From positions 26,602 through 90,601 of the forward strand of contig NZ_JAASHM010000012.1 of NCBI RefSeq assembly GCF_019734195.1: a DNA stretch of 64,000 nt. Reading direction: 5' to 3'. Below, in pieces: positions 18,223 to 55,833 of this stretch (the first letter of the stretch is position 1; the number at the start of each line of letters is the position of its first letter). The notes below the pieces were generated by a model that did no database searches, was not told where the DNA came from, and was given only the letters and a program-made list of their open reading frames with translations. Made by a program: the position numbers and the translations under genes. The DNA comes from Clostridium sp. K13. Lineage in GTDB: Bacteria; Bacillota; Clostridia; Clostridiales; Clostridiaceae.

Positions 18223-19521
18223 ATGAGAAATAAGTATATTCAGTTTGTAATAATGATTATAGCAATATTTCTAGTTACTGGGGTGGTGCTAAAAATAAAG
18301 ATAGATAAAATTAATAATAATTCAAAAATTAATAATCAAAGTATAGATAGCAATGAAAGTGAAGGTGAAGAAATTATAGCTAATAAATTTTTAGAGGATG
18401 GTGAAATGAGAGGTGTATGGTTATCTACAGTAAGCAATTTAGATTGGCCTGAAATTAGTAGCTATAAGAATAGTAAAGTTCAGCAAGAAATGTTAAAAGA
18501 AAAATTTGATTTCATAGAAGAACAAAATATGAATACAATATTTTTTCAAGTCAGGCCAATGGGAGATGCATTTTATAAATCTAATTATGCAGCATGGTCA
18601 AAATATTTAACTGGGAGTTTGGGAGAAGACCCTGGGTATGACCCCCTTGAATTTGCTATTAATGAAGCTCATAAAAGAGGCTTAGAGCTTCAAGCATGGT
18701 TTAATCCTTTTAGAATAGATAGTAATTCTGCAGGTTTTAATATGGATAATTATATTAATGAGCTGCCAGAACAATCACCATTAAAAAATAATTCAAATTG
18801 GATTGTAAAATATAATAATTATCATTATCTTGATGTAGGAATACCAGAGGTTAGAGAATATGTAATAGATACAATTATAGAAGTTGTAAAAAATTATAAT
18901 ATTGATGGGGTTGTATTAGATGATTATTTTTATCCATATCCTTCAGGTGGATTAGAATTTCCTGATGATAATACATATGAAAAGTATGGTGAAGGATTTA
19001 ATTCAAAGGAAGAATGGAGAAGAAATAATGTTAATTGTTTTATAAGTGAGTTATATAAAAAGATTAAAGAAACTAATACGGAAGTTAAGTTTGGTGTTAG
19101 TCCATTTGGAATATGGAGAAATGGAGAATCTTTAGGAGGAAGTAATACAAGTGGTTTAAGTAGCTATGATAATGTATATGTAGATTCAAGGAAATGGATT
19201 CAAGAAGGTTGGATTGATTATATTATTCCTCAAATATATTGGCAATTTGATTATAGTGCAGCTCCATATGCAACGCTTGTTGACTGGTGGGCTAAACAAG
19301 TTGAAAATACTAATGTTCAATTATATATTGGGCATGCAGCCTATAAAATAAATGATTCAACCTATGGTGAGTCATGGCTTAATGAAAATGAAGTAATAAA
19401 TCAAATCCGATATTCTAGGGGAAATTCAAATGTAAAAGGAAGTTGTTTCTTTAGATTAAAGACTTTAGAGGAAAATAGGATAGGCTTTACAGATGAATTG
19501 AGAGAGTTATATAAAAGATAA
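18223..19521 (+). CDS. GH10-like (DUF187, PF02638) extracellular glycosidase
   Basis: The opening MRGVWLSTVSNLDWP (residue about 62 onward) is the hallmark of the DUF187/GHL10 family, and the TIM-barrel motifs follow: IFFQVRPMGDAFY, LQAWFNPFR, IDGVVLDDYFYP and IDYIIPQIYWQ. An N-terminal hydrophobic helix (about 8-25) directs the protein to the membrane or cell exterior. These enzymes are linked to cleavage of peptidoglycan-type or other amino-sugar glycans after removal of stem peptides; the substrate here is not determined. AAAGGAGGTGA is placed ideally before the ATG. It is transcribed alone; the palindrome 55 bp after its stop has no T-run. Confidence 0.9.
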   Translation: MRNKYIQFVIMIIAIFLVTGVVLKIKIDKINNNSKINNQSIDSNESEGEEIIANKFLEDGEMRGVWLSTVSNLDWPEISSYKNSKVQQEMLKEKFDFIEEQNMNTIFFQVRPMGDAFYKSNYAAWSKYLTGSLGEDPGYDPLEFAINEAHKRGLELQAWFNPFRIDSNSAGFNMDNYINELPEQSPLKNNSNWIVKYNNYHYLDVGIPEVREYVIDTIIEVVKNYNIDGVVLDDYFYPYPSGGLEFPDDNTYEKYGEGFNSKEEWRRNNVNCFISELYKKIKETNTEVKFGVSPFGIWRNGESLGGSNTSGLSSYDNVYVDSRKWIQEGWIDYIIPQIYWQFDYSAAPYATLVDWWAKQVENTNVQLYIGHAAYKINDSTYGESWLNENEVINQIRYSRGNSNVKGSCFFRLKTLEENRIGFTDELRELYKR

Positions 19522-19574
19522 ATTTTATTTTTGTTTTAAAGTTAGTTTTATAAATGTTTATTAGTAACTATAGA

Positions 19575-19622
19575 AATCTGTTATACTAAATTGTTGGTAA
19601 CAACAATTTAGTATAACAGATT
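19575..19622. repeat. 22-bp perfect inverted repeat, copy 1 of a conserved palindrome
   Basis: The arms 19575-19596 and 19601-19622 are perfect complements around a GTAA loop. The 18-nt arm core TGTTATACTAAATTGTTG recurs exactly at 55680-55697 with loop CTAA. Both copies lie 3' of paralogous IS1595-like genes, here 165 bp past the stop of the 19787-20713 gene. No T-run follows on either strand, so it is not a typical terminator. Confidence 0.9.
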
Positions 19623-19786: not shown

Positions 19787-20713
19787 TTATATAAGTATCG
19801 TTTTAAATTTTATGTTTTTCCAAGATATATAGGTAGTTAGATTTGGAGCTAAGTAATCTTTATTTTTTAATTTATTAATTAGATTATTTTCTTTATTAAG
19901 TTCAAAGTTATTTTTATATTCAAATAATCTCCAATATAAATAGTGATCTAAGTATTTACTTGCAACACCATGAAATTTTGAAAGCCAATTTACAGTATTA
20001 ATAGAATATTTTATATCAATATAATTTTTAGGAATTTTTGTTGCTTTAGCTTTATTTATTTCATTAAATGCTTGAGAAAATATTTTTAGACGTCCATCAA
20101 TTAATCCAACTACATATGAATGTTTATCTAAACGTGGAATAAGATTATCCCTAATTTCATAAAATCCAAAAAAGTTTCTTGCAGCAAAGATTGGAATTAT
20201 ATCAATAGAATCATTTACCGCATTGATAATTGTTATTTCATCTCTTTTATCATAAGGAATATCTCTAGAACCTTTAAAATTTTCTGTTATAATCATTTTA
20301 GTCAATTCAACATATGAAGTTATTTTTTCAATATAATGTTGGTTTTTAAAATCAAATAAGAATCTATGTCTCCAGAAAAAGGCTGTAACAATTGTAATAT
20401 TTAATTTATTTGCACATTCTCTTAATGTTAATCCTTTATTTAAAAGATCAAAGTATTTACTATAATTTTCTTTGAATTTTTTAGAATAGCGAAATTTATT
20501 ATAAATTTCTTTAGTAAAGGTTTTACCACACAAATCATTTTTACACTTGTATCTTTGAAGTTTTTTATACATACCATATTTGATAAAATCTTTATTATCA
20601 CAATATGGACATTTTTCTATTTTACAATTACTATTTTTAGAACTTTTACAACAAGAGTTAGCTATATTTTTATTAGAATTATAATTCATTAGAGTTTTAT
20701 AAAAATTAATCAC
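19787..20713 (-). CDS. IS1595-like, transposase-derived zinc-ribbon/HTH protein, copy 1
   Basis: An InsA-type zinc ribbon (CPYC...CKNDLCG, about 35-65) is followed by an HTH segment (LTLRECANKLNITIVTAFFWRHR) as in IS1595/ISXO2-family transposases, and a C-terminal WLSKFHGVASKYLDHYL motif matching the end of that family's core. Where IS1595 enzymes carry the first catalytic Asp (typically DETY), this protein has VELTKMIITENFKGSRD, so the DDE/DDN site looks incomplete; LIDGRLK may keep the second Asp. The GTG start follows GGTGA at 6 nt. The copy at 54543-55478 is closely similar along the whole length, roughly two-thirds identical by eye. No flanking terminal repeats or duplicated target are visible, so it looks domesticated rather than an active IS. 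See the palindrome at 19575. Confidence 0.8.
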   Translation of the reverse strand: MINFYKTLMNYNSNKNIANSCCKSSKNSNCKIEKCPYCDNKDFIKYGMYKKLQRYKCKNDLCGKTFTKEIYNKFRYSKKFKENYSKYFDLLNKGLTLRECANKLNITIVTAFFWRHRFLFDFKNQHYIEKITSYVELTKMIITENFKGSRDIPYDKRDEITIINAVNDSIDIIPIFAARNFFGFYEIRDNLIPRLDKHSYVVGLIDGRLKIFSQAFNEINKAKATKIPKNYIDIKYSINTVNWLSKFHGVASKYLDHYLYWRLFEYKNNFELNKENNLINKLKNKDYLAPNLTTYISWKNIKFKTILI

Positions 20714-20892: not shown

Positions 20893-21870
20893 TTAAGTGG
20901 TAGCCATGATTTTTCCAAGATCTTTTAAATCATAGCCTCCAATACCGTATAGTTCATTTTTGAATTTTTCAGAGGATAATATAGAAAGTATATTTTGATA
21001 AATAGGATTATTTAAATCACTTTTCTTTATAATTAAATCATATCTTTCAGTTTGAAGTGGAATAAAATCTATAGTTTCAACTTGCATAGAAGCTTTTTTA
21101 TTTCCCAGACCTACATTAGCATCACCACGTCCCACTGTACTTGCAACAGCTAAGTGAGAATTTTCTTCATTATAATAACCATTTATAGAGTTTGGATCAA
21201 TATTAAGCAATCTAAGTTTTTCATCTAATAGTACCCTTACCCCACTACCTTTTTCCCTGTTAATAAATTTTATATTCTTATTAGTTAAATCCTCAAATGA
21301 GTTTATATTTAAGGGATTACCTTTTGCAACATAAAATCCTTGTAATCTATATGCTAAATTTACAAGAATACAAGGAGTGCCTGGTAATAGTCTTTTAACA
21401 TAATCAAAATTATAGCTATCATTATCACCATCCCAAAGATGACAGGAGGCTATAGAAACTTTATTATTATATAAATCATATAAACCGTTATAACTTCCCT
21501 TGTAAGAACGAAGGATAGTGTAGTCAGGTAAAATTTCTTCTATGTATCTTGCTAAAACATCTAATAAAATATCTTGACCAGAAATAATTATTTCAGAATT
21601 AGTTGGATTATTTAGTGAGATATTATTAGTAGTAATATTTGAAATATTATTATTTAATGAATTATTAATTATATTACGATTAATAGATGGTTTAGAGTTA
21701 GATTTTTGATTATTAATATATTCTTCAACATCATGCATATCTATCCTAATTTTTTTACCAATTTTATAACTAGGTAATTCACCACGTTTAATAAGTTCGT
21801 AGACTGTATTTTTAGTTATTTTAAGTAACTCTGAAACTTCTAATGGAGTTAAAGAAGATTTTAAGTTCAT
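20893..21870 (-). CDS. HTH regulator with periplasmic-binding-like domain, probable molybdate/tungstate regulator
   Basis: An excisionase-type helix-turn-helix (HTH_17: LTPLEVSELLKITKNTVYEL, GELPSYKIGKKIRI, about residues 7-55) is joined by an Asn/Ser-rich linker (about 58-95) to a substrate-binding domain of the PBP_like type (PF12727, about 95-320) with motifs SIASCHLWDGD, EKGSGVRVLLDE and VGRGDANVGLG. Such proteins are one-component regulators related to ModE-type systems. It is transcribed away from modA, and the 160-bp shared region carries repeated sites. AGGAGGGAT lies before its ATG on the minus strand. The long Asn-rich linker is unusual but fits a flexible tether. Ligand identity is inferred from context. 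Confidence 0.82.
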   Translation of the reverse strand: MNLKSSLTPLEVSELLKITKNTVYELIKRGELPSYKIGKKIRIDMHDVEEYINNQKSNSKPSINRNIINNSLNNNISNITTNNISLNNPTNSEIIISGQDILLDVLARYIEEILPDYTILRSYKGSYNGLYDLYNNKVSIASCHLWDGDNDSYNFDYVKRLLPGTPCILVNLAYRLQGFYVAKGNPLNINSFEDLTNKNIKFINREKGSGVRVLLDEKLRLLNIDPNSINGYYNEENSHLAVASTVGRGDANVGLGNKKASMQVETIDFIPLQTERYDLIIKKSDLNNPIYQNILSILSSEKFKNELYGIGGYDLKDLGKIMATT

Positions 21871-54415: not shown

Positions 54416-54542
54416 TTAGTGAGTATAAAGGTTTTAGTAGTTAAAGAAAAATATATATTAAGTTTTATAAAGAAGTTTTAAAAATAATATAATAAATGTT
54501 TAAAATTATTTTCACTTGTTAATAATTGCAGATGGTGATAAT

Positions 54543-55478
54543 ATGAATAACGTTTATAAAATATTAATGAAAACTTCTAATAAAAAAATAATATCAGATC
54601 CTAATTTAAATGTATGGAAAAATAGAAAATCAAAAGTAAAAATAATAAACAAATGTCCATATTGTGAAGCTCAAGATATTATTAAATATGGAATGTATAA
54701 AAGTAATCAGAGGTATAAATGCAAAGATGAGCAGTGTGGAAGAACTTTTACTAGTGAATTTTATAATGAATTTAGATATTCTAAAAAATTTAAGGAAAAC
54801 TGTGATAAGTATTTTGAGCTTTTAAATAATGGCCTTACTATAAGAGAGTGTGCAACTAAATTAAATATTACAACTGTTACAGCATTTTTCTGGAGACATC
54901 GTTTATTATATGATATAAAATGTAAAAATTATATAGAAAAAATAAATTCCTATGTAGAATTAACTAAGATGATTGTACGTGAAAATTTTAAAGGCTCAAG
55001 AGAGATTTATGAAGAAAAAAGAGATTCAATTATAGTTATTAATGCTGTAAATGAATCTCTTGATATAATGCCAATTATTGCAGCTCGAAATTTTCTTGGT
55101 TTTTATGAAATAAGAGATAATCTTATTCCCAAATTAGATAAAAGAGCATATGTAGTAGGATTAATTGATGGAAGACTTAAAACTTTTGCTAAGGCATTTA
55201 ATGAAATAAATAAAGTTGAAATTAGAGAAAATAATGGGGAAAATATTGATATAAGATATTCTATAAAGACTTTAAAGTGGTTATCTAAATTTAGAGGAGT
55301 TGCAACTAAATATTTAGAAAATTATTTAGCATGGAGACTATTTGAGTATAAAAGTAGTTTTGAAATAAAAAAAGAGGTACTTGGAATTGAAAAGATAGAA
55401 AATAATGAGTGCTTAAAGCAGAAAATTAATACATATATTTCTTGGAAAAATATAAAGTCAACAAAACTGGAAGCTTAA
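54543..55478 (+). CDS. IS1595-like, transposase-derived zinc-ribbon/HTH protein, copy 2
   Basis: It aligns end to end with the 19787-20713 protein: zinc ribbon CPYC...CKDEQCG, HTH LTIRECATKLNITTVTAFFWRHR, a conserved GFYEIRDNLIPKLDK segment, LIDGRLKTFAKAFNEIN and WLSKFRGVATKYLENYLAWRLFEY. The position of the first IS1595 catalytic Asp reads VELTKMIVRENFKGSRE, again without Asp. Similarity is highest in the core and lost in the first 30 and last 40 residues. The start ATG 54543 is chosen because GGTGATA lies just upstream, as at the paralog, rather than the longer frame from 54516. A palindrome nearly identical to that of copy 1 lies 201 bp after the stop. A terminator separates them. Confidence 0.8.
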   Translation: MNNVYKILMKTSNKKIISDPNLNVWKNRKSKVKIINKCPYCEAQDIIKYGMYKSNQRYKCKDEQCGRTFTSEFYNEFRYSKKFKENCDKYFELLNNGLTIRECATKLNITTVTAFFWRHRLLYDIKCKNYIEKINSYVELTKMIVRENFKGSREIYEEKRDSIIVINAVNESLDIMPIIAARNFLGFYEIRDNLIPKLDKRAYVVGLIDGRLKTFAKAFNEINKVEIRENNGENIDIRYSIKTLKWLSKFRGVATKYLENYLAWRLFEYKSSFEIKKEVLGIEKIENNECLKQKINTYISWKNIKSTKLEA

Positions 55479-55532
55479 AAGTTTCTAAAGAAAAAACGAG
55501 AGTATATATTTTTATAGAGTAATTTAATGGTT

Positions 55533-55570
55533 GGCCATTATTTTAATGTTAATAATGGTCTATTTGTTTT
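55533..55570 (+). terminator. Terminator after IS1595-like copy 2
   Basis: GGCCATTATT pairs with AATAATGGTC (one wobble) around an 8-nt loop, followed by TATTTGTTTT. Confidence 0.7.
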
Positions 55571-55679
55571 ATATAAATATATATTTGATAAAAAATTTCT
55601 GAACATAATTAAAATAAAAATATTAAATATTTTAAAGTAACTTAGGGGGAAATTTATGCTAAGTGAGTATATATTAATA

Positions 55680-55719
55680 TGTTATACTAAATTGTTGCTA
55701 ACAACAATTTAGTATAACA
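55680..55719. repeat. 18-bp perfect inverted repeat, copy 2 of the conserved palindrome
   Basis: The arms 55680-55697 and 55702-55719 are perfect complements around CTAA. The arm TGTTATACTAAATTGTTG is identical to copy 1 at 19579-19596; only the first loop base and the outer flank differ. It lies beyond the terminator of the IS1595-like gene, so it is more likely a DNA site than part of its mRNA. It sits between two convergent genes, as does copy 1. Confidence 0.9.
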
Positions 55720-55833
55720 GACTCATATAGTGATTAATGATATACTTTATAGGTAATACTATATCAATTATTTATAAAAGGGAATGATTAAATTTTCCGT
55801 ATGTATTGTTAATAAAGATAAATAAAGAATAAT

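Follow-up and report, generated by a model that had tools for sequence, protein, structure and literature searches.

The window, a 64-kb stretch of contig NZ_JAASHM010000012.1 of Clostridium sp. K13 (genome G000; 4.02 Mb in 92 contigs), encodes two proteins derived from IS1595-type transposases, copy 1 (c1, locus A) and copy 2 (c2, locus B), and beside each gene lies a palindrome built from the same arm (Table 1). The proteins are full-length paralogs with 64% identity across 305 amino acids (aa), as an initial annotation had described them, and their genes are only 35 kb apart. Both carry the N-terminal zinc ribbon of IS1/IS1595 type, a feature of the IS1595 family, with scores of 35.4 and 40.3 bits against model NF050000 (cut-off, 28), but both fall short of the full IS1595 model NF033547 (38.5 and 40.4 bits; cut-off, 75). 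In copy 2 the zinc ribbon occupies about residues 38 to 71 and the helix-turn-helix (HTH), placed from the helices, about residues 81 to 128, and in the structural model an RNase-H-type order of strands and helices spans residues 137 to 283. By this model the protein is of RNase-H/DDE type, not Y1 HUH. Among sequences of the PDB no credible relative of the protein was found, and Foldseek alone returned no match at an E value of 0.001 or better.

The initial annotation saw no first catalytic Asp, and the alignments agree. Thr stands at this position in both window copies (Thr141 in copy 2, where Asp209 follows the fourth strand), and the structure, read from aligned ranges on the assumption that they are ungapped, puts the position in the first strand opposite Asp64 of integrase. 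The first Asp is present in 7 of 7 canonical transposases and in none of the 21 genes of the clade of these proteins or the 21 loci of more distant relatives, and the canonical third-residue Asn is absent from all 42. Nor does it occur in any listed database relative that has a residue at this position (238 in all: 118 clade proteins and the top 120 among 823 profile matches); its place is taken by Thr, Ser, Asn, Gly, Ala or some other amino acid. The database matches considered were the best 120 of 176 and the best 120 of 823; one residue alignment comprised 102 of the best 120, chosen by length, plus five copies of our own. No intact catalytic set was seen.

The window contains four exact copies of the 18-nt arm TGTTATACTAAATTGTTG, two beside each paralog, and four arm matches with up to 3 mismatches were reached in 0 of 100 dinucleotide shuffles (mean, 0.37), in line with the earlier claim of a repeated pairing of arm and gene. 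Both palindromes sit between convergent genes, as had been noted. That of copy 2 indeed lies beyond the gene's own terminator-like hairpin, and hairpins like it were seen by eye 3' of c23, c44 and c52; at copy 1, the sole terminator-like match is the palindrome itself.

Table 1. Positions of the genes, palindromes and associated features (window coordinates unless another locus is named; TIR, terminal inverted repeat)
Feature	Position	Strand	Remarks
Copy 1 (c1, locus A)	19787..20713	-	308-aa IS1595-derived protein; GTG start at 20713
Copy 2 (c2, locus B)	54543..55478	+	311-aa IS1595-derived protein
Copy 1 palindrome including outer arms	19575..19622		core 19579-19618; read as two fused TIRs; matrix ranks 1 and 3
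Exact-arm TIR half-site, copy 1	19579..19596	+	
Exact-arm TIR half-site, copy 1	19601..19618	-	
Copy 2 palindrome	55680..55719		read as two fused TIRs; matrix ranks 2 and 7
Exact arm, copy 2 palindrome	55680-55697	+	
Exact arm, copy 2 palindrome	55702-55719	-	
TATA box, copy 1 palindrome	19569..19572		six bases outside core
TATA box, copy 2 palindrome	55726..55729		six bases outside core
Conserved leader of copy 2	54500..54542	+	TGTTTAAAAT..TTGTTAATAAT..GGTGAT ahead of start codon (alignment)
Terminator-like hairpin of copy 2	55533..55560	+	between gene and palindrome
Half-site arrays, genome G027	L203:8174-8342, L089:6889		period 37-41 bp
Half-site arrays, genome G041	L098:4527-4584, L099:4908-5044		period 37-41 bp
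Locus A neighbour, HTH_17 + PBP_like	20893..21870	-	synteny anchor
Locus A other neighbour, GHL10 glycosyl hydrolase-like	18223..19521	+	synteny anchor

Palindromes and transposon ends

The clade belongs to a wider superfamily at 31 to 39% identity to its proteins, with family-level matches at an E value of 1e-35 or better in 20 of 206 genomes (clade included) and 823 proteins at 1e-20 or better in a profile search. Inverted repeats such as TGTTTAAAATAAATGTTGGTAAT flank the gene in 19 of 21 distant loci (21 of 22 were used; L140, with no open frame, was dropped). A TIR matrix was made from 37 repeats of these distant relatives, none of them from the clade; the repeats were picked by a consensus typed from distant elements and are thus alike by choice. 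This matrix ranks the palindrome arms 1st, 2nd, 3rd and 7th on both strands of the window, and in its background only 10 of 696,600 positions score above 11 and 2 above 17, with a contig-end palindrome and array half-sites still included. The high ranks of the arms suggest that the palindrome is a TIR joined to an inverted TIR, inner end to inner end, with no interior. The initial annotation had compared the palindrome with REP (repetitive extragenic palindromic) sequences and named a mobile tag among its possible roles; the palindrome is not an independent tag of the REP kind, since its arms match the element's own two TIRs, fused.

The distant relatives have TIRs instead of such palindromes; none of TGTTATA type was among those reported within 800 to 900 bp. 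Ordinary flanking TIRs were not found in the clade, where matrix matches within 800 bp lie on one side of the gene only, except at E_G041; at D_G000, a second palindrome lies 1.2 kb away. Most loci have the palindrome 3' of the gene; locus D has it 5'. The motif TGTTTAAAAT had hinted at a TIR upstream of the clade genes, but this idea was rejected: the matrix finds none except where the palindrome itself lies upstream. It does not recognize the copy 2 leader or match anything upstream of copy 2, and the leader would correspond to a promoter and ribosome site. In genome G023, gene-less TIR pairs have 48, 58 and 117 bp between repeat matches, and these are plausible intermediates toward the fused palindrome. 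Around 6.075 to 6.113 Mb of the same genome, a gene copy clusters with several TIRs and with two TIR pairs that lack a gene, all within about 37 kb.

The source genome holds five intact gene copies including copy 2 (49 to 100% identity to copy 2) and an internally deleted one on contig C52. A loose pattern matches 15 places in it, eight of which are two-armed palindromes of this type: one near each of the six copies, another some 1.2 kb away from the C34 copy, and the last past a major facilitator superfamily (MFS)-like gene on C52. The deleted copy (L111:10316-10724) retains its palindrome about 200 bp downstream. On C34, two palindromes with near-identical outer arms (L104:6243 and 8587; 86 bp at 94%), indicative of recent local duplication, flank the gene copy and a neighbouring gene.

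Arms vary among loci of this genome, yet they mostly pair within a locus (e.g., ATACTAAATTG, ATACAAAAATG, ATATCAAAATG). Across the 31 palindromes described below, most loci have a TATA box at a distance of six bases from the core, and the first six bases outside the core are largely locus specific and complementary between arms at 130 of 186 pairs. When right arms were shuffled among loci, the mean was 0.44 and 0 of 5,000 shuffles reached 130 of 186; in a thinned set of 22 palindromes, 93 of 132 pairs are complementary (again 0 of 5,000). This covariation could stem from hairpin selection, symmetric binding or template-switch repair.

Distribution, selection and movement in Clostridium

How widely is the pair of gene and palindrome kept? 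In a genus set of 68 genomes, gene relatives (E value of 1e-40 or better) occur in 7 and the palindrome in 6 (32 places; 0 for a reversed-pattern control). Both occur together in five genomes (G000, G009, G027, G040 and G041); in G044 and G063 the gene is represented only by a relative at 38%, with no palindrome detected, and G042, 59% complete, has two palindromes and no detected gene. Sixty of the 68 genomes have neither at these thresholds, some of them holding more distant relatives; named relatives include proteins of C. cuniculi and C. saudiense. The 32 places reduce to 31 distinct palindromes, as G041:C23:7-46 was merged with G041:C1:7-46, both lying at contig ends with flanks that match one G027 site. 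Twenty-three of the 31 adjoin a gene copy (counting the truncated C52 copy, a contig-break case and one 1.2 kb off) and eight have no gene beside them, so that gene-less scatter is not the main pattern; none of the 31 falls within an open reading frame of at least 90 aa. The six positive genomes have 2 to 8 palindrome places each. Draft contigs end at or near palindromes (both ends of G009:C42; the starts of G041:C1 and C23), which probably break the assembly, so draft counts may be lower bounds.

The pairing of gene and palindrome, claimed from two window copies, extends to 19 of 21 intact genes in the five genomes, with a complete palindrome beginning within 400 bp on the same contig. Both remaining genes are at contig ends: the contig of B_G009 ends inside the palindrome, and that of A_G009 stops 182 bp past the gene, the contig with the next syntenic gene bearing a palindrome near its end. 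The genes that flank loci A, B and C are shared by G000, G009 and G040, locus D has a partly conserved neighbourhood in these genomes, and loci E, F and H are common to G027 and G041. At locus A, G042 has a palindrome without the gene (L103:6641-6680, 15 bp from the ortholog of 20893..21870), and G027 and G041 keep the neighbours and lack both gene and palindrome. In the protein tree, locus D splits from the other 18 clade rows, which are grouped with support of 87/84.

Pairwise dN/dS (the ratio of nonsynonymous to synonymous substitution rates, by Nei-Gojobori) is 0.14 to 0.34 in 14 ortholog pairs, indicating purifying selection. Among distant relatives it is 0.16 to 0.29 in 15 of 16 pairs, ten pairs of dispersed G023 copies included, and one pair is saturated. 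Conserved loci under purifying selection, features of a domesticated transposase, are thus present.

One palindromic unit appears to have moved. A solo palindrome on G040:C22 sits in a 124-bp segment (L093:6772-6895) that is missing from the sister species G009, where the flanks are continuous. In G040, TATTTTTT stands on both sides of the segment as an exact 8-bp direct repeat, and G009 has a single near copy, TATTTCTT; random 8-mers of the region are identical with a frequency of 2.6e-4, and among 36 x 36 flank bases the junction 8-mer is the sole identical one. G027 also lacks a palindrome at this site, which favours insertion over loss. A few distant elements (L131, L132, L133 and L141, of which L131 to L133 share flanks) have exact 8-mers where their TIRs end, and no exact 8-bp duplication was found around the window copies. 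Eight-mers at unequal or other offsets round older palindromes (L087, L098, L107 and L111) were taken as chance. No empty site was obtained for the solo palindrome on C52, and for that at L092, relatives match on one side only.

Canonical IS1595 transposases over the cut-off were found in 3 of 7 genomes examined, with five matches in G000 and four (one with stops) in G040, and none in G023, G009, G027 or G041. The four matches in G040 make a helper possible there. In the source genome, a canonical IS1595-like gene on C64 (L023), a possible helper, has the 15-bp inverted repeat GGCTCTGTTTTAAAT on both sides.

Half-sites also occur in direct arrays. Five of them, in tandem with a period of 37, lie between an M18 aminopeptidase gene and a cation-efflux gene in G027 (L203), and the corresponding gap in G041 holds a palindrome and two half-sites; at a second G041 locus, a palindrome accompanies four half-sites (up to 3 mismatches), and its G027 counterpart has one half-site and a palindrome. 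All ten unpaired half-sites (up to 2 mismatches) in 527 kb of sequence lie at array loci. Each unit of the L203 array consists of an arm, a six-base spacer and a TATA-like box, a pattern that head-to-tail copying of a binding site would produce. The arrays are iteron-like and adjoin or replace solo palindromes.

A probable protein-site pair, its rivals and its parallels

The genes and palindromes form a genuine and unusual pairing of protein and site that descends from IS1595 and is neither a RAYT (REP-associated tyrosine transposase)/REP member nor an intact IS1595 element. We consider it probable, at roughly 0.6, that the palindrome is two IS1595-like TIRs fused and that the gene product, without the first Asp, binds these TIRs instead of cutting them. 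As the initial annotation proposed, the palindrome is a likely binding site of the protein. The zinc ribbon and HTH would read the bipartite half-site TATA-N6-TGTTATA-N2-AAA-N-TGTTG, a protein dimer would occupy the palindrome and protein units would align on the 37-bp arrays; the bound protein might be a local regulator, a chromosome-organizing factor or a mask of the ends. The past movement of a palindromic unit may have been catalyzed in trans by a canonical IS1595 transposase. On the best reading, the protein is a partly domesticated descendant of a transposase, and its sites could move, probably through a helper.

Several observations weigh against this interpretation. Of 236 residues near the second catalytic position, 230 are Asp, and the protein could thus still bind metal to some extent. 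The protein diverges faster than most of its neighbours (67 to 71% identity at loci A and B between G000 and G009/G040, against 71 to 99% for listed neighbour genes), and the genes adjoining the sites have no obvious common function among the 7 looked at. Most clade copies have no TIR on the far side, so the interpretation does not account for the multiplication of gene plus palindrome. Template-switch repair of quasi-palindromes can yield matched outer arms without selection. As one palindromic unit apparently moved, with an empty site and an 8-bp duplication, the sites are not purely domesticated, and the earlier proposal of a domesticated system, well matched by the fixed loci and purifying selection, is only part of the story.

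Could the protein still cut? An unusual active site, made of Asp209 and another acid and moving ordinary elements by itself, seems unlikely, even though the six dispersed G023 copies examined all lack the first Asp and so apparently spread after its loss, with dN/dS of 0.19 to 0.29 for five of them. The retained Asp near position 2, the 8-bp direct repeat and the want of a canonical transposase over the cut-off in 4 of 7 genomes speak for it as well, but the residue opposite integrase Asp64 is replaced, the third residue is not conserved and loci A, B and C are fixed across three species. We give a similarly low likelihood to a repressor that covers TIRs and thereby shields host and element from canonical IS1595 transposases, a role that truncated transposases play in some elements. 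The canonical TIR on C64 shares its outer CTGTTTTAAAT with the TIRs of some distant relatives, and canonical transposases occur in only 3 of the 7 genomes, both agreeing with repression; the inner part of the canonical TIR, however, differs at TGTTGTTA, the best-conserved part here, and G000 and G040 hold their canonical matches besides the dead copies.

That the palindrome is merely the gene's transcription terminator or RNA hairpin is very unlikely. The copy 1 palindrome is terminator-like in the sense of the gene, and among 19 gene-linked 3' palindromes the core mismatches in gene sense comprise 6 G-U versus 1 A-C and 1 other. Yet the outer-arm mismatches show no G-U bias (13 G-U and 16 A-C at positions 1 to 12; 6 and 13 at positions 1 to 10), copy 2 has its separate hairpin ahead of the palindrome, at locus D and at E2 the palindrome is on the 5' side of the gene, eight of 31 have no gene, and arms stand unpaired in the half-site arrays. 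Random decay of inert insertion-sequence relics is disfavoured and hardly credible: the internal deletion of the C52 copy, the G042 palindrome kept without its gene and the copy numbers that vary between species would suit it, but not 21 intact copies with their low dN/dS and complete palindromes beside 19 of them.

Features in common with the IS1595 family are the zinc ribbon, the HTH, the RNase-H-type order of strands and helices, TIRs that in many distant relatives carry a CTGT-like box and, at a single palindromic unit, a direct repeat of 8 bp; the family's duplications and repeats are described in PMC12561309 and PMC8101967. Unlike that family, all listed relatives lack the first Asp, the third residue is not conserved, the score is below the NF033547 cut-off, and the TIRs of the clade, joined as a palindrome, mostly occupy just one side of the gene. 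The initial annotation drew a parallel to RAYTs that maintain REP palindromes. According to PMC8266576, TnpA-REP proteins, relatives of IS200/IS605, are HUH enzymes that process REP sequences in single-stranded form, and REP are high copy. In such REPtrons, as here, a transposase relative is kept beside extragenic palindromes that may be mobilized; the present palindromes lie by the gene (23/31), with related ones elsewhere (8/31). The parallel is functional only, because our protein is of RNase-H/DDE type, not Y1 HUH; it is also predicted to be noncatalytic, its palindrome is made of TIRs, and there are 2 to 8 places per genome, not a high copy number. Fold and copy number rule out RAYT/REP membership.

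The gene-less TIR pairs of G023 with their short interior and the 124-bp insertion of G040 with its 8-bp repeat resemble miniature inverted-repeat transposable elements (MITEs), whose features (short, noncoding, with TIRs and a duplicated insertion site) come together once, in the L093 unit with its empty site in G009. The palindrome differs from MITEs in that its interior length is zero, so that two TIRs form one palindrome, and arrays of single half-sites also exist here. CENP-B with its CENP-B boxes, and other eukaryotic transposase-derived DNA-binding proteins, likewise pair a dead transposase relative with a DNA site; the present pair is bacterial and of the IS1595/Merlin-like superfamily, with a site from transposon ends and no known centromeric role. 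No report of a dead IS1595 family with palindromes was found by title or start of abstract, with subscription papers outside the scope. A phage origin was rejected, with 0 matches to the exact palindrome pattern in viral contigs and two weak phage matches, as was a plasmid origin: 58 records all have <60% identity, the 20 listed being mostly annotated as IS1595 family transposases, and the half-site array has no plasmid match.

A broader scenario is tentative and, in our view, rather less likely than not to be right as a whole: a Clostridium superfamily dropped DDE catalysis and kept its ends as sites, one clade built a system of palindromes and 37-bp arrays whose noncutting occupant organizes or regulates the chromosome, and the sites still hop by borrowed or unorthodox catalysis, which would make it the DDE-lineage counterpart of REPtrons. 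If so, the passage from insertion sequence to protein-site pair could be read stepwise in a DDE lineage, from a TIR-flanked gene through a gene-less TIR pair and a fused TIR palindrome to a half-site array. How, then, did Asp-less elements spread, given that in some of the genomes no canonical relative scores above the cut-off? Tests are practical, since some of the distant relatives are named from C. saccharoperbutylacetonicum, a solvent producer open to cultivation and engineering. Across five loci screened with Rfam at gathering cut-offs, the sole match was a lysine riboswitch near locus H in G027 (L091:11440-11615).
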